Source of the DNA: Pleurocapsaceae cyanobacterium CSU_1_1
Lineage (GTDB): Bacteria > Cyanobacteriota > Cyanobacteriia > Cyanobacteriales > Xenococcaceae
Length of the DNA stretch: 64,000 nt
Direction of reading: 5' to 3'
Assembly (NCBI GenBank): GCA_012034765.1
Contig: JAAUOU010000005.1
Location: forward strand, 1-64,000
Part shown: one piece after another, positions 6,007-25,234 of the stretch
Layout: the number at the start of each line of letters is the position of its first letter
How positions within the stretch are numbered: the stretch's first letter is position 1
The notes under the pieces: generated by a model
What the model was told of the DNA's origin: nothing
The model's database searches: none
Seen by the model: the letters and a program-made list of their open reading frames with translations, nothing else
Made by a program: the position numbers and the translations under genes

Positions 6007-7236
6007 ATGACAAACATTTTAATTGTAGGCGCTGGCTCGATTGGCGCACTGATGGGAGCTTCTTTAGTTAAAGCTGGTTTAAAGGTAACTTTCGCTGGCA
6101 AACCTGGAAGTGAGCATACTAAAAAACTTAAACAAGACGGTTTACAGTTGTTTTATGCCAATGGAGAAAGGTTGTGGATTTCACCATTGCATCCACGAGT
6201 TAAATTTGTTGATACTGCAACAAACTTAGGCAAAAAATTTGACATCATTATAGTTGCCGTTAAAAGCAACAATTTAATCAAAGTAGTCCCTTACATTAAA
6301 GCTAATTCAACCCCAGACACAATTCTAATTCATGCTCAAAATGGTATTCCTTACTGGTGGTTTAATAACGATCATTACCTCTCAACCCTCAATCAAACTC
6401 TGTTTAACAAACTAAGTTCCCAGCGCTACTTAAATACTGTCGATCACCAAGGCATCTTACACAGTAATTTGGGCGATCGCACTATAGTAGGCTGCGTGGT
6501 TAAAGCTCCCTGTCAAAGAACAGAAGATGGAAAAATTCAAGTCAAAAAAATCCCGCGAATAATTTTGGGTTTAACTAGAAACTATAATTACAATTTAAAA
6601 CAACGCGCTGAAATTCAACATCTATGTGATTTATTTACTCAATATGGTATAGCTGCTACCTACACTAATAAGATACGTGCAGCCGTATATAATAAGTTAG
6701 TCATAAATATTACTACTAATGTTCTTTCAGCTTTAACTGGCAAAGTAATTGCCGATTTAACTGCGAACTACTATACCAACAGTCTAATTAAAATCATTAT
6801 TGCCGAAGTTAATCATATCTTTAGCTGTTATGGCATTAAACCAGAAGATTTACCAACTGAACAAGCAATTTATGCTTATATCAAAGCTCCAGGTAGCCAA
6901 AGTCATCTACCTTCTCTGGCTCAAGATTTTTCTCAACACAAAGCTGGAGAAATAAGTTTAATTACTGCCCCTGTAGAAATGGCACAAATCGCCCATCTAA
7001 AAGTACCAACTTTATCTATTCTGAGTGAGTTATTGCAGTTATGCCAAACCTATAGCTTGAAAAACTACAATGGCGAATCCCATATTCTGACCATAGATTA
7101 TGCTTCGGATAATCATATGTTAACCAGTAATGTCTGTCAAAGTAGCATAGTCGATAGATGGCGTATATCTAATTTATTGGCTCATCTAGTTCAAGTTAAT
7201 GCATCCACTCTGAATAATCAAATGGTTGTTAGCTAA
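6007..7236 (+). CDS. ketopantoate reductase (PanE/ApbA) family oxidoreductase
   Basis: A 409-residue NAD(P)-dependent dehydrogenase. The Rossmann motif is ILIVGAGSIGALMGA at the N-terminus. The C-terminal domain has YNKLVINITTNVLSALTG, matching the catalytic Lys and Asn block of 2-dehydropantoate 2-reductases. True PanE is about 300 residues, so this protein carries about 100 extra, and it sits between a sulfotransferase-like protein and an anion transporter. It may therefore act on another 2-keto acid rather than in pantothenate synthesis. Its start is 12 bases after the upstream stop. Confidence 0.75.
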   Translation: MTNILIVGAGSIGALMGASLVKAGLKVTFAGKPGSEHTKKLKQDGLQLFYANGERLWISPLHPRVKFVDTATNLGKKFDIIIVAVKSNNLIKVVPYIKANSTPDTILIHAQNGIPYWWFNNDHYLSTLNQTLFNKLSSQRYLNTVDHQGILHSNLGDRTIVGCVVKAPCQRTEDGKIQVKKIPRIILGLTRNYNYNLKQRAEIQHLCDLFTQYGIAATYTNKIRAAVYNKLVINITTNVLSALTGKVIADLTANYYTNSLIKIIIAEVNHIFSCYGIKPEDLPTEQAIYAYIKAPGSQSHLPSLAQDFSQHKAGEISLITAPVEMAQIAHLKVPTLSILSELLQLCQTYSLKNYNGESHILTIDYASDNHMLTSNVCQSSIVDRWRISNLLAHLVQVNASTLNNQMVVS

Positions 7237-7288
7237 CTTCTTAGAGGATGTCTGAGATGAAATATTGCAGCAAACTTCTCAATTTTAA

Positions 7289-8956
7289 ATGCTGATGAAG
7301 CCTCCAGGTATAAATAAAGGTATAAACAAGCAATCTCATCCAAATAAAGTATCTCGGAGTTTTTTACGTTCTCATCTACATCAAAAATATCGTAAGTCAA
7401 CGATTACTAAGCAGCAAACGACGAAATTAACTTCACTAAATCAGCGTAAACTCAGGAATTACTCATTAGCTAGGTATTTGCTTTTTATTTTACCTAGCTT
7501 GGGTTGGCTGATCTATCGCCAACTAGGATTTATTGGCATTGGTAAAAAAGCCAATAAATATAACTCTTGGTTTTTGCCACTTTTAGTTGGGGGCATTATT
7601 TGGCAGCTACCATCTTCCCCAGAAGTTAATCAACAGACATGGCATTTGTGTGCAATTTTTCTAGCTACTATCATTAGCTTTATCACTAAACCAATGCCTA
7701 TGGGTGCTGTCGGAATAATTGCCTTAACCATCTGTGTTGTTAGCAATACCCTAACTATTGAGCAAGGATTGAGTGGCTTTAGTGACAAAACTGTTTGGCT
7801 TACCGTTAGTTCTTATGTTGTTGCCAGAGGAATTATTAAAACTGGTTTAGGTACACGTATTGCCTATCTATTTATTACTCTTTTTGGCAGAAACACTTTG
7901 CTAGTAAGTTATGGTCTATTAATGACGGACGTAATTTTATCTACTGTAATGCCTAGCGGGAATGCTAGAGGTGGTGGTGTAATTTTTCCCATTGTCAAAT
8001 CCTTAGCCACATCTTGTGGTAGCGATCCTCGGGATGGTACTGAACGAAAAATTGGTGCTTTTTTAATGACAACCGCTTACCAGGGAACTCAAATTACTAC
8101 TACGTTGTTTTTAACAGCGATGGTAGCTAATCCTTTGATGGCAGAGCTTGCCCAAACAATTGCTGGGGTAAAAATAGATTGGCTAACTTGGGCTTTAGCT
8201 GCTTCAGTACCTGGATTTCTGAGCTTATTAGTTATGCCCTTGATAATTTATTGGTTTTATCCTCCAGAGCTTCAGTCTACTCCAGAAGCTCCAAAACTAG
8301 CCCAAGCAAAACTGCAAGTAATGGGAAAACTTTCACAGCAAGAATGGTCAATGATGGGAATATTTTTATTGTTACTATTCCTTTGGGGATGTGGTAAACA
8401 GCTTTGGGGCTTAGAGAGCGTTACCAGTGGTCTAATCGGAATTGTTTTGCTGTTAATTACTGGAGTATTAACCTGGAGCGACGTTGTTCAAGAAGAGAAA
8501 ACTTGGAATATATTTATTTGGTTCTCTATTTTGTTAATGATGGCGACTTTTTTAAGCGAGTTTGGTTTGTTTGATTGGGTAACCAATGAAGTTGGCAGTG
8601 CCATTGATAATTTAGAGTGGCAATTAGCTTTTGGCTGTTTAATCATAGTTTATTTTTACAGCAGTTACTTTTTTGTTAGTAAAGCAGCTCTTGCAAATAC
8701 AACCTATCCTGCTTTTTTGACTGTGGCTATTTCTTTGGGAGTATCACCAAGTTATGCAGCGCTGGTTTTGGCTTTTCTAGTTAATTTATCGGGCTGTTTA
8801 ACTCATTACGGCACTGCTGTTGCACCAATCTACTTCGGTGCAGGATATGTAGATCCTGCTACCTGGTGCAGACTGGGATTTTACCTAAGTCTGGTCTATT
8901 TATTCATTTGGATAGTAATTGGAGGTTGGTGGTGGCAACTGACAGGGCTTACTTAG
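7289..8956 (+). CDS. DASS/SLC13-family anion (di-carboxylate or sulfate) transporter
   Basis: A 555-residue polytopic membrane protein. An N-terminal stretch of about 60 basic residues precedes the first helix; it is unusual and could be cytoplasmic. The transporter core includes MPSGNARGGGVIFPIV and LTHYGTAVAPIYFGAGYV, corresponding to the paired substrate-loop motifs of DASS proteins (2-oxoglutarate/malate translocator group). It is the third gene of the putative sulfotransferase/reductase/transporter operon and may move the substrate or product. Its stop lies within a few bases of the 3' end of the convergent binding-protein gene. Confidence 0.82.
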   Translation: MLMKPPGINKGINKQSHPNKVSRSFLRSHLHQKYRKSTITKQQTTKLTSLNQRKLRNYSLARYLLFILPSLGWLIYRQLGFIGIGKKANKYNSWFLPLLVGGIIWQLPSSPEVNQQTWHLCAIFLATIISFITKPMPMGAVGIIALTICVVSNTLTIEQGLSGFSDKTVWLTVSSYVVARGIIKTGLGTRIAYLFITLFGRNTLLVSYGLLMTDVILSTVMPSGNARGGGVIFPIVKSLATSCGSDPRDGTERKIGAFLMTTAYQGTQITTTLFLTAMVANPLMAELAQTIAGVKIDWLTWALAASVPGFLSLLVMPLIIYWFYPPELQSTPEAPKLAQAKLQVMGKLSQQEWSMMGIFLLLLFLWGCGKQLWGLESVTSGLIGIVLLLITGVLTWSDVVQEEKTWNIFIWFSILLMMATFLSEFGLFDWVTNEVGSAIDNLEWQLAFGCLIIVYFYSSYFFVSKAALANTTYPAFLTVAISLGVSPSYAALVLAFLVNLSGCLTHYGTAVAPIYFGAGYVDPATWCRLGFYLSLVYLFIWIVIGGWWWQLTGLT

Positions 8957-10920: not shown

Positions 10921-11742
10921 TTATGTCGAAGATATTTGCCAAGTAACTGAACTAACTTTAGCCTCTGTTTTCAACAGTCTGATAATTTCTTCAGAGTCAG
11001 ACAAACTTAATTCGTTACCCTGAGACGAAAAATCAACTTTGATTTCTATTTCTAGTTCTCCTGGTTCAATTTCACTAAGAACATTTTTGCTTTGCATTTT
11101 AATGAGAGTTAAGTCATGTTTTCTAGCAAAATGACTAATTACCTCTAAAACCTGAGCTTCGGTTTCCGAAAAGCAAAGTAATTCACAGTAATACTGATAA
11201 TTACGGGAATTAGCTCCAACTGAATCAGCTAAAGGTTTTAGACTAGCTATCCTTGCTGTTATTTCAGCATCGTTAAGTTGTTTGACGTTATCTAAAGCCA
11301 AAGAGTCTTTATTGCGTTGTTCGTTGCGCTGCTGTTTGAATGCTTCTTCCAAGGGTTTTGATAGTAGATTAGCGCCGACTACTGCAAAGGTAGATAAATA
11401 AGCTGGCACTAAAAAACCCGAACCTACTAAAGCACCTATTGCTGCTGCACACCAAATTGTCGCTGCGGTATTCGTACCTTTTACAGTTGCTCCTTCCCGC
11501 AAAATTACTCCACCACCCAAAAAACCGACTCCAGAGACTATTTGGGCTGCAATCCTCGTTGGACTGGCATCGCCAGGAGTCATAATTGAGAGCATAGTAA
11601 ACATCGCCGAACCCAAGGTTACTAGTACATTTGTTTTTAAGACGGCTCTTTTTTTTAGCCACTGTCTTTCAATTCCGATACCTACCGCTAAGAAAAATCC
11701 TATGAGCAGACGAATTGAAAAAGTCGTCCAGGTTATAGTCAT
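10921..11742 (-). CDS. MgtC/SapB family membrane protein
   Basis: A 273-residue protein with an N-terminal MgtC domain of about five helices (SIRLLIGFFLAVGIGIERQW, VGFLGGGVILREG, GTNTAATIWCAAAIGALVGSG) and a soluble ACT-like C-terminal region (about 160-270). MgtC proteins are linked to growth at low magnesium and to control of F-type ATP synthase in pathogens; the role in cyanobacteria is not established. It appears monocistronic, bounded by intergenic regions of several hundred bases on both sides. Confidence 0.88.
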   Translation of the reverse strand: MTITWTTFSIRLLIGFFLAVGIGIERQWLKKRAVLKTNVLVTLGSAMFTMLSIMTPGDASPTRIAAQIVSGVGFLGGGVILREGATVKGTNTAATIWCAAAIGALVGSGFLVPAYLSTFAVVGANLLSKPLEEAFKQQRNEQRNKDSLALDNVKQLNDAEITARIASLKPLADSVGANSRNYQYYCELLCFSETEAQVLEVISHFARKHDLTLIKMQSKNVLSEIEPGELEIEIKVDFSSQGNELSLSDSEEIIRLLKTEAKVSSVTWQISST

Positions 11743-12062: not shown

Positions 12063-13799
12063 CTAATTACTCAAAGTATTCACTCGATTCATGAGAATTT
12101 TTGTTTCCGATGCTCCTGCTTGCTTTAGCTTGCGAGTCATCTGTAAACTTATTATCGTAATAGCTAACCATTGACCTAAAATAGCTACAGCGATCGCACT
12201 AAAAGAAACATATTCAGTAGCAGTAATAGGAACAAAGCTCAACAGCCAAACTTGAGGAATTGTGCTGACGGTAAGTTCGGCCACTCCTAAACAGACTGGA
12301 GGTAAGATAATCATTGATGCCACGGCAACAATTGACCAGATGACTCTTTTACGAGTTTTGAGGGTTAAAAGAAACTGAGCAATTACGGCATAAAGTAAGA
12401 TATTTGTCGTACTAAGAATTAATCCCCAAAAATATACTGGTAGCTTGGAGGCAAGATTAGCAAGATTGAAGGAGTAATAAAGGTAATGGCGATCGCTAAA
12501 TTAATAGCAATAGCGACTGTTGCAGGGCTATTATCCCCCAACACTAGTTCCTTCCAGAGAGAATTACCGTGATTTTGATAACGATACCGCGCCCAATCGT
12601 AGAGAGTTTGACGGTGAGGACTTAAAGCAAAGATTAGCCCCAAACCAAACAAGCTTAAACAAACCTGTAAGAAAATAAAGTTGTTGCTGATGAGATAGAT
12701 ATCATCATGAACTGTAGCAAGATTAGATTCAGTTTGAAGTGTAAAACCAAGAGCGATTGGCGCAAACCAAGCAGTCAGCCAATAACTATTAACTTTACTA
12801 AGTATAGTCTTCTCAGGATTATGAAAGCGACGTTTTAAGATTGCCCAGCACCAATATGTCCACAAGCTAAAATTCAAGAAAATCAAGCCGATCCCCACAG
12901 CAGTTTTAGTCCATAAAGCTTGTCCGTAAAAAGATAATTCTGCTAAATTGTCTGTAGACAGAAAGTCAATTGTGCCAAAGCGTAAATGACTAGCATCGAT
13001 TAAGTAGGTTAAAACTATTGCTGGATTAAACATCAAAGTCCAGGCTAAAAAATGATCTAATTTTGCATGTCCATCAACCAAGATGGCAGTGGCAAACAAG
13101 AGCAAAAACCCGAGTAAACCGCTAGCAAACCACGATTTAAAGCCTGATACGCCAAAATCGAGTAAACTCCACAGCAAGGCTAGACAATAAAAAAAGCACA
13201 GCTAGCCACGACTGTCAAATCGAAAGCCAGAATTAGAGTTAAGGGAATATGGGACTGTAATCCTGCCACCAGATGTAAAGGTAATAATAAAGCGATCGCC
13301 GTATAAACTAGAATTGGTACACCCAAAATTTTGCCGAGTAAAACACTGCCAGCAGATTGAGGAGTAAGACGGATAAAGTTAAGGGTGCCTCTTTCTTCTT
13401 CTCTAACGGTGTCGGCAATCAATAGATAAGTACCGATTACTAGCAAGGCAAAAATACCAATAATACTCAGAATAATAAATAAATCCAGCCACCATAGCTG
13501 CCAGTTAATTACCCAACTGCCAGCCTCATTTTGAGCATAGCAAACCTGATTACTATACTCTTGATAGATAAGAGCCATACCATAGCGACCACACTGAGTA
13601 CCTGCCAGCTTAAAATCTGGTAACTGACCTAGCAAAAAATAACTGTAATAAACTGAGCAATTGCCGCGATCGCCGCGGCAATCACCATGTTTCTAGTTTT
13701 GAGCTTACCTTGAATCTCTCGAAACAACTGGGGATTACTGTCTAAAAGCTTTGACCAGAGAGAATTGGGGGTGCTAAACAGTCTAATGTTTTGTTTCAT
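12063..13799 (-). pseudogene. ABC-2 type exporter permease, split into four pieces by single-base losses
   Basis: Starting at ATG 13799 (MKQNIRLFSTPN...), the coding sequence runs through LGQLPDFKLAG..., LWSLLDFGVSG... and ASMIILPPVCLG... to the stop at 12063. Three frame changes interrupt it: at an A6 run 13634-13639 (minus-strand T6), an A7 run 13189-13195, and the CCCC/AAAAA run at 12424-12432. One added base at each restores one continuous protein of about 578 residues with many membrane helices, a permease partner for the ATPase 13 bases upstream. LNFIRLTPQSAGSVLLGK near the first third is typical of cyanobacterial ABC-2 permeases. It is either a decaying gene or, more likely, an artefact of base loss in homopolymers. 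Confidence 0.75.
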
Positions 13800-15784: not shown

Positions 15785-16753
15785 TTATTTGTTTTTGGGT
15801 CGAAAACAAACTAGAGCAGCGATCGCTTCTGCCAAAATACTAATCAGACGATAGAATGCCACAGCAGCAATTTCGCTGGGAAACTGGCTATTATCTAACA
15901 GTCCGTAGGCGGTAACTTCAAATATTCCTAATCCTCCTGGTGCGCCAGGGACAATTAGACCCAAGAGCCAGGCAAAGCTAAAGGAGGTAAACAGTTGGGG
16001 AATCTGCTGCCAGGTTACAGTTTGCAGTGCCACAAAAGTTAACACAAAGCCGATTCCGCGCAAAATGACAAAGCCCATTTCTCCCAAAAAAGGTATTAAA
16101 GGATAGTTGGTTAGTTCAATTGCCTCGGCGGCAGTAGCGTCAGCTTGGTTTTTGCTGCGACTTAAACGGTGCAAGAGGATATTAAGAATCCGAGGTTGGA
16201 TACCAATTAATATTGCCACCAAGCCAGCAACCTGTAGCCAGTGACGATCCCAGTTAATTGTCTCGCTCCACATACTGCTAACTAAGCCAATTAATAAAGC
16301 TGCTGCTGCCATTAATAAAGGCTCTAACAGCACGCTCAAGGTTGCAGCACCTCTAGAACCACCTTTTTTGCCTACGGCGCTAATTCTGCCGTAAAAGTGC
16401 CAGATATTGCCAGGGGAATACTTAGCAATGTTGGTGACCAGATAAACCCTGATGCCTTCCTTAACCCCTAATGGTTGCTTAAAGATAGCTAGAATCCAAG
16501 TCCAGACCCAACCAGACCAAACATGAGCAATGATAGTTACGATAACGGCGATCGCCAAAATCAACCAACTATAGGTATCAACCCGAATTGCTGCAACTTC
16601 AATCCAGCGTTCTTTTACTGTTTGAACCAGAAAGAATAAAACTCCTCCCAGAATAAACCAACGTAGATAAGGCTTAATCCGAACCAGTATATCTTTCATG
16701 CACCTTTGTACGGGCGAACGGCTGTTCGCCCCTAACTTGACTGACTCACTCAA
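15785..16753 (-). CDS. UPF0104/LPG-synthase-type membrane protein (flippase-like)
   Basis: A 322-residue protein with about eight helices. VTNIAKYSPGNIWHFYGR and the C-terminal VPGAPGGLGIFEVTAYGLL are typical of the lysylphosphatidylglycerol synthase transmembrane family (PF03706), which flips or modifies lipids. ATG 16753 overlaps the stop of the kinase gene by 4 bases. Residues about 6-17 from that start are encoded by a dispersed palindrome (16712-16731), so the native start may be ATG 16699 (MKDILVRIKPYLRW). Either start leaves the membrane core intact. Confidence 0.8.
   Translation of the reverse strand: MSESVKLGANSRSPVQRCMKDILVRIKPYLRWFILGGVLFFLVQTVKERWIEVAAIRVDTYSWLILAIAVIVTIIAHVWSGWVWTWILAIFKQPLGVKEGIRVYLVTNIAKYSPGNIWHFYGRISAVGKKGGSRGAATLSVLLEPLLMAAAALLIGLVSSMWSETINWDRHWLQVAGLVAILIGIQPRILNILLHRLSRSKNQADATAAEAIELTNYPLIPFLGEMGFVILRGIGFVLTFVALQTVTWQQIPQLFTSFSFAWLLGLIVPGAPGGLGIFEVTAYGLLDNSQFPSEIAAVAFYRLISILAEAIAALVCFRPKNK
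16712..16731. repeat. GC-rich dispersed palindrome inside a coding start
   Basis: Arms GGGCGAAC (16712-16719) and GTTCGCCC (16724-16731) flank a 4-base loop, with TAC and CTA on the outside. It belongs to the same type as the palindromes at 40934, 41928 and 46463. Here it falls in the first codons of the flippase-like gene. Confidence 0.7.
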
Positions 16754-19311
16754 ATACCTAACTTAGACTCAATTCTAGCTAAAGAACTAATTGCCGCTTC
16801 CCAATCTGGCTTTAACTCTACTGCTTTTTGATAGTATTCCCTAGCACTGTCATACTGCAAGAGATATTCAGCAACAGAACCCTTGCCGTACCAAGCCTCA
16901 TAGTAGTCGGGGTTAATTGTCAGTGCCTGGTCATAGGAATTTACTGCTTGGTCATATAATCTACTCGCTTTTTGCGTATTACCCAAGCCGATCAAAGCAG
17001 GAAGGTAGTCGGGTTTAATTGCCAGGGCTTCATTATAAGCCTTGATCGCCAGTTGATATCTTTTTTGCTGATAGTACACCTTACCTAAATTGTTCCAGGG
17101 TACAAAACTACGATTGGGATCGAGACTGATCGCTTTTTTAAAATCGGCAATGGCGCTATCATACTCCATTATGCCAGTGTAAGCTTCCCCACGATTATTC
17201 CATAGCCAAATATTATCAGGAGCAATTTTAATTGATTGGTCATAAGCAGCGATCGCTGCATCATATTCTTTGAGGCTATAGAGAGTTAATGCTTTGCAGT
17301 TCCATAGCTGGGGGCTTTGATAATGTCTTAAAGCAGTATTACAGGTTTGTAATGCCCCTGGATAATCATTTAGCTGCCGTTGAGCCTTCGCTTTTTTTAA
17401 CCATACCTGTTCAAAGTTTCTCACCTGTCCTCTAGTATTGGCTAATTTTTTTAGTCCATTCTCATAGTAATTAATTGCTTCTTGATACTGCTTTGCTTCT
17501 AGCTTGAGATCTCCTTTGTAAAATTCTAGAATTGCCACCCGCTGCGCCCATTGAGCCATGCCAATCAAAATACCAAAGATGAGAATTGGCGCAATCAAAA
17601 GATATTTGTATAGACCTTTAAATCGGGACTTGTGCTTGATTTTTTTAAGGTCTTTGGCAACTCTATTAAGAGATTGATACCGCTGATTTTGATCGAGACA
17701 AATCATTTTATCCAAAATTTTGGCAAAGTTAGGACTAATTCTCGCTTTGCGATGCCAAAGAACTTCTCCAGTACGGGGATTTTTTTCTAATTTTTGCGGT
17801 GAAGTTCCTGTTAAAACATAAATTGCTGTCATCCCCAAGGCATAGATATCACTTGCACAGGTTACTCTACCAGCAATTTGTTCTGGGGGAATATATCCCG
17901 CTTTACTATTAGGAGTTAAATTCACTGCTTGGTTGACCAAATTAAAATCAACTAAAGTAACATTCCCGTTATCGTTGCGCCTAATTAGGCTAGAGGGTTG
18001 AATATTACCATGAATAATCTGCTGTCGATGGAAGGGTTTTAGGGCGCTGACAGTATTAATTAAAATATCAATTACTTCGGCTTCTGAGAGGATAAACTGG
18101 TCTTCTACAGTTTGAGCTAGGTTTTTACCCTCTATATATTCTTGAACGATAAAAATTTGCGATTCATCAACAAAATATTCAATTATCGCTGGAGTTCTCT
18201 GTTCCTTATCTATTGTTGATAAATGATTAAACCCAGCCATAATTTTTTGGGTAATGGCTGACAAGGAAACTTGAGAATTTTGTACTTTTAATATTTCCAG
18301 ATAATAGCGATCGCTGTTTTGAGCTAAACTTGTAGCCACATAGGAGTTGACGTTTTGATTACCGCCTAAGTACTTAACCATTTGGTATTTTCCCCCAATG
18401 GTTTTGCCAATCATTTGCAACGGCTCTAAATCATGCAGTACTTCGCTCGCATTTTGATAGCGTTGGGAAGTACTCTCTGCCGTCATCCGATTGACAATTT
18501 TCAGAAAAGCCTCGCTAATGGCGATCTTTTGATTCCAGCAGACTGTCCCATCAGGTTCAGCCATTTCCCACTCAGTAGGGGATTTAGCCGTCATCCCAAA
18601 AACGACTGTTTTCCCCAAAGCATATATATCACTGCTGTAGATTGGCTTACCATTATTTTGCTCTGGAGGCATGTACCCAGGAGTGCCAATAATCTGGGTT
18701 TGCACCTTCTGCTTACTAACATCAAAAGCCATCGTGCCGATTTCTTTAACTGCCCCGAAGTCAATCAGGATCATCCTGCCATCTTCCTGTCGCCGAATTA
18801 AATTTGAGGGCTTGATATCACGATGAATAATACCCTGTTGATGAACCGATTTAAGAATGCCTAAAATATCTACTAAAAAATCAACTGCTTGAGTTTCATT
18901 GAGCATGTGGCGATAAACTTCTTGCTCAAATTCTTCTCCTTCAATAAACTCTAAAACTAAATAAAATTGCTCATTTTCTTCAAAATGACCGATAAATTCA
19001 GGAATTTGAGCATGTTTACCCAGCCATTGCAGCACCATTGCTTCAGTTGCTAGGCGTTCTTTGGCACTAGCCCAAACCGAAGGACTGTTAAATTTTGGCT
19101 GTAATTGTTTAACGGCACATTTTACTCCAGACTGCCGATCTGATGCTAAATAGGTGGTAGCAAACCCCCCGCTACCAAGTTCACGAATAATATCAAATCT
19201 TTGATTTAATACATCTCCTGTCTTGAGCGCCTTATAACCATACTCAGTATAATGTTCAGCAGAAGAGTTTTGGGACTGGGAAATGGGAATAGTAAAGTCT
19301 GAGTCTGACAT
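16750..19311 (-). CDS. Ser/Thr kinase with a second pseudokinase domain, membrane helix and TPR repeats
   Basis: An 853-residue protein. The first kinase domain (about 38-295) is complete: LGSGGFATTYLASD, AVKQL, HRDIKPSNL and DFGAVKE. A second kinase fold (about 303-560) has HGNIQPSSLIRR in place of HRD and DFN in place of DFG, so it is probably catalytically dead. A membrane helix follows (YLLIAPILIFGILIGMA, about 567-590). The rest (about 595-850) is a run of six or more TPRs with typical YxxALAIKPDY units, presumably outside the membrane. It likely phosphorylates partners in a signalling role. A TPR/periplasmic-binding protein is encoded divergently at 19970. Confidence 0.92.
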   Translation of the reverse strand: MSDSDFTIPISQSQNSSAEHYTEYGYKALKTGDVLNQRFDIIRELGSGGFATTYLASDRQSGVKCAVKQLQPKFNSPSVWASAKERLATEAMVLQWLGKHAQIPEFIGHFEENEQFYLVLEFIEGEEFEQEVYRHMLNETQAVDFLVDILGILKSVHQQGIIHRDIKPSNLIRRQEDGRMILIDFGAVKEIGTMAFDVSKQKVQTQIIGTPGYMPPEQNNGKPIYSSDIYALGKTVVFGMTAKSPTEWEMAEPDGTVCWNQKIAISEAFLKIVNRMTAESTSQRYQNASEVLHDLEPLQMIGKTIGGKYQMVKYLGGNQNVNSYVATSLAQNSDRYYLEILKVQNSQVSLSAITQKIMAGFNHLSTIDKEQRTPAIIEYFVDESQIFIVQEYIEGKNLAQTVEDQFILSEAEVIDILINTVSALKPFHRQQIIHGNIQPSSLIRRNDNGNVTLVDFNLVNQAVNLTPNSKAGYIPPEQIAGRVTCASDIYALGMTAIYVLTGTSPQKLEKNPRTGEVLWHRKARISPNFAKILDKMICLDQNQRYQSLNRVAKDLKKIKHKSRFKGLYKYLLIAPILIFGILIGMAQWAQRVAILEFYKGDLKLEAKQYQEAINYYENGLKKLANTRGQVRNFEQVWLKKAKAQRQLNDYPGALQTCNTALRHYQSPQLWNCKALTLYSLKEYDAAIAAYDQSIKIAPDNIWLWNNRGEAYTGIMEYDSAIADFKKAISLDPNRSFVPWNNLGKVYYQQKRYQLAIKAYNEALAIKPDYLPALIGLGNTQKASRLYDQAVNSYDQALTINPDYYEAWYGKGSVAEYLLQYDSAREYYQKAVELKPDWEAAISSLARIESKLGI

Positions 19312-22371: not shown

Positions 22372-22595
22372 TAAAAGTGATTAATATATCATTACAAGTT
22401 TTCAATATAGCAATATTTGACTATAACTACAGCAGGAGCTATAGAAATTTTCGATAAAAAAATCAACTTGTTAAGACGATTTAAATCAAACAAGGTAAAC
22501 CAATTACTTTGCAAACAGTCTTAAATCCCAAAAATAAAATCTTAAAATATAGTCCTAAGTAGTTAATTTATTTTGATACATAAATCACTTTTTCT

Positions 22596-23242
22596 ATGAC
22601 TAAGCATCTATTTACAGTTGGACACTCAAATCTTAGTCTTGAAGAATTTATCAGATTAGTAAAAAACATCAAGTTAATGCCATTGCAGATGTCCGTTCTC
22701 ACCCTTATAGTAGTTATTTATCTCACTTTAATCGAGATTTACTGAAATTTGAGTTATTAAAAGCAAAGTTTAAATATGTATTTTTAGGTGATGAATTAGG
22801 AGCAAGACCAAAAGACTTAAGCTGTTATATTAACAATAAAGCAGTATATAGCAAAATTGCTGATTCTAATGATTTTCAAAATGGTATTAAACGAATAGTT
22901 GTAGGCTTAAACAAATATCGAGTTGCTTTAATGTGTGCAGAAAAAGATCCGATATCTTGCCATCGAACAATTCTAATTTGTAAACATTTACGGCAGCTAG
23001 ATATTGAAATAGATCATATTATTGATGACAAGACTCTAGAGTCTCAAGGGCAAATAGAAGATAGATTACTTGATTTACATGGATTTGATTTGCAACACAA
23101 TAGATTGAAAATCCCCAAGATATTACAACTCGATTTATTTAGCTCAGTACAATCTAGTACAACATCATTTATTTCTAAGGAAGAATTTCTAGAAAAAGCA
23201 TATTTAATTCAAGAAAATAAGATTGCCTACAAAAATAAATAA
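22596..23242 (+). CDS. DUF488 family protein, first of two, frame broken near the start
   Basis: ATG 22596 opens MTKHLFTVGHSNLSLEEFIRLV, the N-terminal DUF488 signature. The frame then changes at an A6 run (22661-22666); one added A continues with HQVNAIADVRSHPYSSYLSHFNRD and on to MCAEKDPISCHRTILICKHL, the conserved Cys/His block of the family. The restored protein is about 215 residues. DUF488 function is unknown; the invariant C...CHR suggests a metal-binding or thiol active site. It ends 2 bases before a second DUF488 gene, followed by a dual-OB protein. Confidence 0.82.
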
Positions 23243-23244
23243 TC

Positions 23245-23712
23245 ATGAATAAAATGCGTCAGATACAGTCGTCAAATATTAATTTGTACAGTATTGGATT
23301 TACTCAAAAAACAGCCCAGGAATTTTTCACTCTTTTAGCCAATGCTGGAGTTAAACGAATTATTGATACTAGATTAAATAATGTTTCCCAGCTAGCAGGT
23401 TTTGCCAAACGAAAAGATTTAGAATATTTTTTAAAAGAAATTGCTGATATTGAATATGTACATATCTTGGATTTAGCACCAACACAAGACATACTTAACA
23501 AGTACAAAAAAGAAAAAGGCGATTGGAAAACTTATGAAAAAAGCTTCCTGGACTTGATGAAAACCAGGCAGATAGAGAAGACAATATCTCCAAAACTACT
23601 TGATGGAGGTTGTTTATTGTGTAGTGAAGCGAAACCTCACAATTGTCATCGTCGCTTAGTAGCTGAATACTTAAATAATAAATTGGGAAATATAAATATA
23701 TGTCATCTTTAG
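23245..23712 (+). CDS. DUF488 family protein, second of two
   Basis: A 155-residue intact DUF488 protein: YSIGFTQKTAQEFFTLLANAGVKRIIDTRLN at the start and CLLCSEAKPHNCHRRLVAEYL at the end, giving the same Cys...Cys-His-Arg pattern as its neighbour. The two share architecture but differ in sequence and length, so they look like specialised partners rather than a recent duplication. It starts 2 bases after the first DUF488 gene and ends 10 bases before the dual-OB gene, strongly suggesting one operon. Confidence 0.87.
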   Translation: MNKMRQIQSSNINLYSIGFTQKTAQEFFTLLANAGVKRIIDTRLNNVSQLAGFAKRKDLEYFLKEIADIEYVHILDLAPTQDILNKYKKEKGDWKTYEKSFLDLMKTRQIEKTISPKLLDGGCLLCSEAKPHNCHRRLVAEYLNNKLGNINICHL

Positions 23713-23722
23713 ATATGTATTT

Positions 23723-24379
23723 ATGGTTAAAATAATTTGTTTAGCTAATTCCAAGAAAAACGGCGATCGCTGTATTGCTGGTATTGATATTTGTACGGAA
23801 AAATGGATTCGCCCTGTATCAGGAACTAAAGATGGTAGTATTTCTGCCAACAAACGTTTGGTGAATGGCAAAGAACCACAGTTGCTAGATATTTTAGACA
23901 TTACTGTGGATAAAACAGGGGAAGATTTTGGATTTGCAGCGGAAAACTTGAATATTATTCCTGGTCAATGGCAAAAAGTAGGACAATTTGTTCCCAATCA
24001 ATTAATCAAATACTGCAACAATAATTTATGTGTATTGCATAATGCTTGGAAATTTGTCGAAGTTGCTTTTTTAAAACGCTTGCCCTTCTCACAAAGAAAA
24101 ACTATTCAATTAGTATATGTTGAAAAATTATTAATCGAGTGGGACGAAAAAAAAATGAAATGGAGAGGCTCTCTAAATAATAAAAATTCCACAATTCTCA
24201 ACGGTCTACCAATTACCGATCCAAAATTTATAGCAGCACTTAGATCTGGTTATAAACCTCAAAATCCTTGCTTAGTAACAGTTAGCCTTAGTATGCCCCA
24301 TAATCCTTATCGAATTGATAACTGGGCGCATGGTGCTGTTTGTTGGAAATTAATTGCTGGAGTAATTGAGTTGTCTTAG
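23723..24379 (+). CDS. dual OB-domain protein (DuOB type) linked to DUF488
   Basis: A 218-residue protein beginning VKIICLANSKKNGDRCIAGI followed by KWIRPVSGTKDGSIS, and ending GYKPQNPCLVTVSLSMPHN with WAHGAVCWKLIAGVIEL. I recognise this as the dual-OB type found next to DUF488 genes. OB folds usually bind nucleic acids or nucleotides, so a role in handling a modified or damaged nucleic acid with the DUF488 pair is possible, but this is inference. The start follows the DUF488 stop closely. Confidence 0.65.
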   Translation: MVKIICLANSKKNGDRCIAGIDICTEKWIRPVSGTKDGSISANKRLVNGKEPQLLDILDITVDKTGEDFGFAAENLNIIPGQWQKVGQFVPNQLIKYCNNNLCVLHNAWKFVEVAFLKRLPFSQRKTIQLVYVEKLLIEWDEKKMKWRGSLNNKNSTILNGLPITDPKFIAALRSGYKPQNPCLVTVSLSMPHNPYRIDNWAHGAVCWKLIAGVIELS

Positions 24380-24478
24380 TTTGTGGCGATCGCACGCTAG
24401 AAATATGCCTGATCCGTAGGCAGTTTCATGATTAAATTTATTAAATTTATAGATGAAGCAAAATGGAGGAGGAGCAAA

Positions 24479-25234
24479 ATGGTATCCAATACAGAGCAGA
24501 TTTTAGTCGCTGGTGCTACGGGAGGAGTGGGACAATTAGTAGTTGCTAAGTTATTAGCCAAAGATCTCAAGGTTTGTGCCTTGACTAGAACGAGAGCCAA
24601 AGCAGAATCGATGTTTGATCAACAAGTTAAAATCATCGAAGGGGATATTCGTCATGCCAATACTTTGGCAAGGGTTACCAATGGTATTAGCTATATAATT
24701 TGCTGTACGGGGACAACTGCATTTCCTTCCCTCAGATGGGATTTTGCTAATCTGTTTCAACCTGCCAATAGTCCCGCAGCGGTAGACGCAGAAGGAGTCA
24801 AAAACTTAGTCGCTGCTGCACCTGAAGATTTAAAAAGGTTTGTGTTTGTTTCTTCCTGTGGTGTATTGCGTAAAGATGAGTTTCCCTATAATATCCTCAA
24901 TGCTTTCGGCGTTTTGGATGCCAAATTAAAAGGAGAAGAAGCGATCGCTGCCTCGAACTTACCCTACACGATTATCCGTCCTGCTAGATTAATTGATGGT
25001 CCTTATACTTCCTATGACCTAAATACTTTATTACGCGCCAAAACCGACGGTAAAAAAGCTGTCAAAATAGAGTCAGGCGATCGCTTAAACGGCGAAACTA
25101 GTCGTATAGATGTGGCTAATGCTTGTGTTGAAGCTTTGTTTTATGACACGACTATTAACAAGGACTTCTCGATCATTAATGCAGAAGATAGAGATCATCC
25201 AACTCAATGGTCAGAACTTTTTGCCACACTTTAA
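24479..25234 (+). CDS. atypical SDR, NAD(P)-binding (NmrA/YwnB-like) protein
   Basis: ATG 24479 is preceded by a strong GGAGGAGGAG at 24465-24474, so it is preferred over the upstream ATG 24428. The 251-residue protein starts with the Rossmann motif ILVAGATGGVGQLVVAKLL and has FVFVSSCGVLRKDE and YTIIRPARLIDGPY, typical of atypical short-chain dehydrogenases related to plant HCF173 and other chloroplast assembly factors. No classic YxxxK is seen, so redox catalysis is uncertain. Confidence 0.82.
   Translation: MVSNTEQILVAGATGGVGQLVVAKLLAKDLKVCALTRTRAKAESMFDQQVKIIEGDIRHANTLARVTNGISYIICCTGTTAFPSLRWDFANLFQPANSPAAVDAEGVKNLVAAAPEDLKRFVFVSSCGVLRKDEFPYNILNAFGVLDAKLKGEEAIAASNLPYTIIRPARLIDGPYTSYDLNTLLRAKTDGKKAVKIESGDRLNGETSRIDVANACVEALFYDTTINKDFSIINAEDRDHPTQWSELFATL

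Follow-up and report, generated by a model that had tools for sequence, protein, structure and literature searches.

A mobile three-gene cassette of one DuOB and two DUF488 proteins, a candidate phage-defence module, in a Pleurocapsaceae cyanobacterium

Three short genes lie close together and in the same orientation in the genome of Pleurocapsaceae cyanobacterium CSU_1_1, two of them encoding DUF488 proteins (genes B and C) and the third a DuOB protein (gene A), and the locus raises the question of whether they form a functional unit and what such a unit would do. It was analyzed within a stretch of 64,000 nucleotides, referred to here as the window (contig JAAUOU010000005.1, positions 1 to 64,000), and its features are collected in Table 1. 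The intergenic gaps of 2 and 10 bases given in a preliminary description are correct on the sequence, and the Cys...Cys-His-Arg block that it claimed for both DUF488 proteins is present in both, that of gene B lying in the -1 frame. Genes C (155 aa) and A (218 aa) are intact open reading frames, and a genome search found no further DUF488 or DuOB genes elsewhere in the 4.6 Mb genome. Promoter-like sites occurred at the level of shuffled sequence (10 vs. 10.8), and a terminator scan returned two weak terminator-like sites. Separately, the window carries an 853-aa protein at 16750-19311 (-) whose translation reads like a kinase domain followed by a degenerate second kinase-like domain and TPR repeats.

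Table 1. Positions of the cassette, its genes, and the segment that holds it (window coordinates).
Feature	Position	Strand	Description	Evidence
Cassette	22596-24379	+	three co-oriented genes, order B-C-A	
Gene B (gene 1, DUF488)	22596-23242	+	frame broken	
Gene B, N-terminal part	22596-22666	+	GHSN motif; ends at the A run	translation of the frame from 22596, MTKHLFTVGHSNLSLEEFIRLVK
A6 run	22661-22666	+	-1 break of the gene B frame	sequence; KKH/KQH in one frame in relatives, A7 in L070
Gene B, remainder	22664-23242	+	-1 frame, 192 open codons; DVRSHPYS and CAEKDPISCHR retained	PADLOC PDC-M45B (PDLC04657), E=1.2e-57
Gene C (gene 2, DUF488, near the DUF488-N3a subclade)	23245-23712	+	motif CLLCSEAKPHNCHRR	PDC-M45C (PDLC04658), E=5.9e-70; model pLDDT 90.5
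Gene A (gene 3, DuOB)	23723-24379	+	two OB domains (model)	PF22557, E=2.8e-39; PDC-M45A (PDLC04653), E=3.7e-28; model pLDDT 94.9
Inserted segment holding the cassette	22424-24449		about 2.0 kb, 31.4% GC	empty sites in sister genomes; low GC

All three proteins belong to named families. Genes B and C match Pfam DUF488 (PF04343) with E-values of 2e-17 and 9e-23 (64.4 and 81.6 bits vs. a curated cut-off of 22.2), gene C being close to the Pfam "active DUF488-N3 subclade" as well, and gene A reaches 135.8 bits against the curated cut-off of 27 for DuOB. The trio is already catalogued by PADLOC as the phage-defence candidate PDC-M45, a candidate by name, so that the locus is not the undescribed system for which it had been put forward as a candidate: PADLOC lists the three proteins as PDC-M45A, B, and C, and Pfam names both DuOB and the DUF488-N3 subclade. 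An NCBIfam scan matched no model to any of the three proteins, and no mention of PDC-M45 was found in the literature searched.

Regarding the conservation of the unit, a DuOB search of 386 cyanobacterial genomes at the family cut-off yielded 43 genomes above it. When the flanks of the 49 cyanobacterial DuOB loci were examined, both DUF488 genes adjoined DuOB in 45, in the order B-C-A in 40 (a member being split or broken in three of them) and A-B-C in 5, while the remaining four loci were fragments. A scan with the C profile gave at least 584 confirmed loci; among the best 80, which were selected by C and therefore contain it by construction, the cyanobacterial loci had the order B-C-A and those of other phyla, among them Acidobacteriota, Verrucomicrobiota, Planctomycetota, and Pseudomonadota, the order A-B-C. 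Five of these 80 loci had B-C without a recognized A, two of them (L161 and L178) with a divergent DuOB-like gene next door, and another five had C alone. No conserved fourth gene was found around the cyanobacterial loci, where the cassette mostly neighbors ordinary chromosomal genes. The pairing anticipated in the preliminary description is thus borne out by the gene-neighborhood survey, in cyanobacteria and in other phyla. Scattered orthologues without pairing and a third protein without OB folds, either of which that description had named as counting against its proposal, were both looked for, and neither was found.

The predicted structures bear on what the proteins could do. The DuOB model (pTM 0.92) comprises two OB domains, in agreement with the dual-OB fold first proposed: residues 1-104 and 98/125-218 align separately to OB domains with Z 6-7.6 and rmsd 2.2-4.8, Z values such as the tool usually gives for weak cases, though from lists composed almost wholly of OB proteins. 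The first half matches the OB domains of SSB, PriB, RPA, and telomere-end-binding proteins, and the second half those of BrxL and Rim1; the suggestion that the fold contacts nucleic acid gained support from the two halves and from matches such as SSB, PriB, and the telomere-end-binding proteins. The fold predicted for gene C is consistent with the tyrosine-phosphatase type (SsoPTP, Z 7.5; PRL-1, Z 7.0), with further matches to diphthine-synthase-like methylases (diphthine synthase itself, Z 7.2) and CbiL (Z 7.9), all within the tool's noise range, and to DUSP and a baculovirus RNA 5'-phosphatase in a weak list spanning Z 6-7.9. Despite the weak Z values, we give these fold matches weight because the lists are homogeneous. 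Foldseek returned no match with an E-value below 1e-3, and sequence searches linked none of the three proteins to a solved structure; the matches to ferritin, ATP synthase, and Zwilch (E 0.17-0.98) were set aside as chance. At the residue level, C91, E93, C99, H100, and R101 are invariant in B (pattern C-x-E-x2-P-x2-C-H-R), and C123, C126, E128, C134, H135, R136, and R137 are invariant in C (pattern C-L-C-S-E...C-H-R-R), so both have the conserved putative active-site cysteine with an arginine looked for in a rhodanese-phosphatase.

One member of the cassette is exchangeable. The common form in viral contigs (proviruses) and plasmids is A-C-D, where D combines mSLOG (PF22565) with DUF4326 (PF14216), the latter bearing the motif C-x-P-x2-C-H-G-D. 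No cassette among 179 loci combined B with D. A tree of 141 C proteins places 22 of the 24 A-C-D members in one supported group (99/97), and its well-supported branches require four or more switches between the cassette forms. Because the two partners never occur together and the forms have switched repeatedly on the C tree, B and mSLOG-DUF4326 probably fill an equivalent role beside a constant core of DuOB and C, as far as genomics can tell. In viral contigs, a scan with the single DuOB protein gave no match, and profile scans gave 38 loci with the C profile and 9 with the B profile; among named phages, the only matches were distant C-like ones in Gordonia phages. In five proviruses (L202, L207, L208, L214, and L217), reading of the sequences placed A-C-D within about 200 to 750 bases of putative small and large terminase genes, as if the cassette were phage cargo.

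Mobility is also evident at the window locus itself. In five genomes of the same genus (L104, L105, L106, L108, and L110) the site is empty and the flanking genes are direct neighbors, adjoining with a short unrelated spacer between them, and the cassette is therefore an insertion of about 2.0 kb. Comparison within the genus places the edge of the 5' flank at about 22419-22424 and that of the 3' flank at about 24449-24476; the genes on either side encode a methyltransferase and an NAD(P)-binding protein. None of 124 sampled two-kb windows (mean 39.7% GC) has a GC content as low as that of the segment. The NAD(P)-binding gene spans 24428-25234 (+) in the window, and since its relatives align only from residue 10-17 onward, its start probably lies near 24479, with the upstream ATG falling at the border of the insertion. 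In G011, a genome of the genus, pieces of the cassette stand at two contig ends (L106, about 11081-11119; L112, about 7178-7302) and at a site different from that in the window. Degenerate cassettes are frequent (L084, L087, L088, and L089), and in L053 (2112-2915, -) the N-terminus of B is fused in frame to the C-terminus of DuOB, evidently by internal deletion. On plasmids, the surroundings of some copies are of the defence type: an A-B-C cassette adjoins CBASS genes in Agrobacterium, another lies within a type III CRISPR locus in Allochromatium, and A-C-D in Klebsiella has a toxin gene and a restriction-modification pair of the NotI type as neighbors. On a Rhodovastum plasmid, a protein 2777 aa or more in length is encoded shortly downstream of A-B-C (L257:10103-18435) and matches SNF2 helicase, N6-methylase, and intein/HINT. 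Around non-cyanobacterial loci, PADLOC matches are scattered and, for want of a background rate, were not counted as evidence. Overall, the cassette is patchy, mobile, and found in defence neighborhoods, the last weakly so in cyanobacteria.

From these data, we hold with moderate confidence that the genes form a mobile conflict module of three members, most likely directed against phages: DuOB would hold nucleic acid in single-stranded form, and two cysteine enzymes would work on its ends or adducts. The two OB domains of DuOB would bind the single strand and bring the enzymes to it. Gene C would be the constant enzyme, a putative rhodanese/PTP-fold protein whose conserved Cys...CHR(R) loop could act on a nucleic-acid end or adduct by phosphotransfer or similar covalent chemistry, and gene B would be the exchangeable second enzyme, its slot taken by the mSLOG-DUF4326 protein in other lineages. 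Two cysteine enzymes of one superfamily together with a nucleic-acid holder is the most economical reading; nucleic-acid binding, end or adduct chemistry, and an anti-phage outcome are all steps that we infer. The defence role suggested earlier gained support from the neighbors on plasmids and was weakened by the mostly ordinary cyanobacterial neighbors and by lone C genes in formaldehyde clusters, which are not defence loci.

These lone genes form the basis of a different explanation, namely that the proteins repair DNA lesions, with C removing aldehyde-type adducts or blocked ends and DuOB holding single-stranded DNA, for stress resistance rather than against phages. Lone C-type DUF488 genes, about 53-54% identical to the gene C of the window, occur in plasmid formaldehyde-resistance clusters of Klebsiella (L250), Aeromonas (L256), and Shinella (L258), directly beside UvrA, UvrB, and RarA, respectively, with FrmR and formaldehyde dehydrogenases nearby. 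However, in the plasmid records examined, A-B-C and A-C-D lie outside such clusters, and the plasmid cassettes are found near defence, toxin-antitoxin, or mobility genes; since the three sampled lone C genes group in a single clade of the C tree, the formaldehyde link may go back to one event. We consider repair an unlikely function for the full cassette, and the lone genes nevertheless suggest the substrate class to try first. A composite proposal, in which the core of DuOB and DUF488-C with its interchangeable DUF488-B or mSLOG-DUF4326 performs a novel chemistry on aldehyde-type adducts or on the ends of DNA or RNA, used both in an anti-phage cassette and, by lone C, in formaldehyde repair, is tentative and somewhat doubtful. 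What makes the find interesting is less the window locus itself than the exchangeable partner and the link to aldehydes and repair: a small mobile trio with many natural variants makes the biochemistry of DUF488 and DUF4326 directly testable, and the swap of B for mSLOG-DUF4326 tells which partner roles are equivalent.

The nature of the swap partner also favors signalling or clearing of small molecules, in which the enzymes would act on nucleotide ligands or on ones derived from NAD or ADP-ribose, mSLOG or B would handle the ligand, and DuOB would be the effector or adaptor. For DUF4326, the processing of ADP-ribose-like ligands has been argued (PMC9503650). The constant partner, on the other hand, is a dual-OB protein, and proteins that bind single-stranded DNA predominate among its best fold matches. 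Macro, NADAR, ART, or Sir2 genes were not recognized as recurrent neighbors of the cassette, and we regard a ligand-based function as unlikely.

Turning from the family to the copy in the window, gene B had been taken as an intact gene in the preliminary description, which overlooked a frameshift. Translation from the ATG at 22596 runs for 49 codons before a stop, and the CAEKDPISCHR block falls in the -1 frame, which carries the protein on from about 22664 as far as 23242. The break consists of one base missing from the A run, where relatives with a full gene B read through in one frame, for example CTAAAAAAACAT with A7 in L070. Because the shifted part is open over its whole length and keeps the residues invariant in relatives, the break is either a recent lesion or an artefact of sequencing. 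The latter is plausible, if unproven, since a neighboring gene at 12066-13799 (-) also shows one-base losses: relative to an intact copy in the sister genome G005 it lacks three bases, two of which clearly fell within runs of A. This gene encodes 579 aa in G005, and no Pfam family was found for it; the A-run losses are at window positions 12433 and 13638, the third, at 13196, comes just after an A run, and the copy in the window reflects either assembly errors or a pseudogene. Programmed slippage into the -1 frame at A AAA AAC, by which the gene would yield a short product alongside a long one, was rejected as very unlikely. The slippery heptamer is indeed present where the zero frame reads GTA AAA AAC, and shifting by -1 restores exactly the homologous LVKKHQVNA, but no relative shares a frame break at this place, the loss of one base from the KK codons makes the same heptamer unaided, and the 12066-13799 gene has suffered losses of the same kind. 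The window copy of the cassette may well be non-functional. That the cassette is merely a chance neighborhood of unrelated small genes has a negligible probability, refuted by the adjacency of the same three genes in 45 of 49 loci.

When compared to known systems, the closest is PADLOC PDC-M45, with whose components the three window proteins match one to one. In contrast to other bacteria, whose DuOB proteins score 185-245 bits, the window DuOB scores 97 bits; likewise, the cyanobacterial order is B-C-A, not A-B-C, and gene B is frameshifted in this genome. The clade was reportedly treated by Burroughs and Aravind (2023); the window shares with it two DUF488 proteins with Cys...Cys-His-Arg, a DUF4326 partner in relatives, and, in the model, a candidate PTP-like fold. 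The lone C-type DUF488 genes of the formaldehyde-resistance clusters belong to the same C subfamily as the cassette gene but differ in standing without DuOB or B and beside UvrA, UvrB, or RarA. Finally, the DuOB-DUF488-mSLOG/DUF4326 cassettes of proviruses and plasmids (for example, L202, L248, and L249) share DuOB and C with the window, likewise side by side in one orientation, whereas their second enzyme is mSLOG-DUF4326 in place of DUF488-B.
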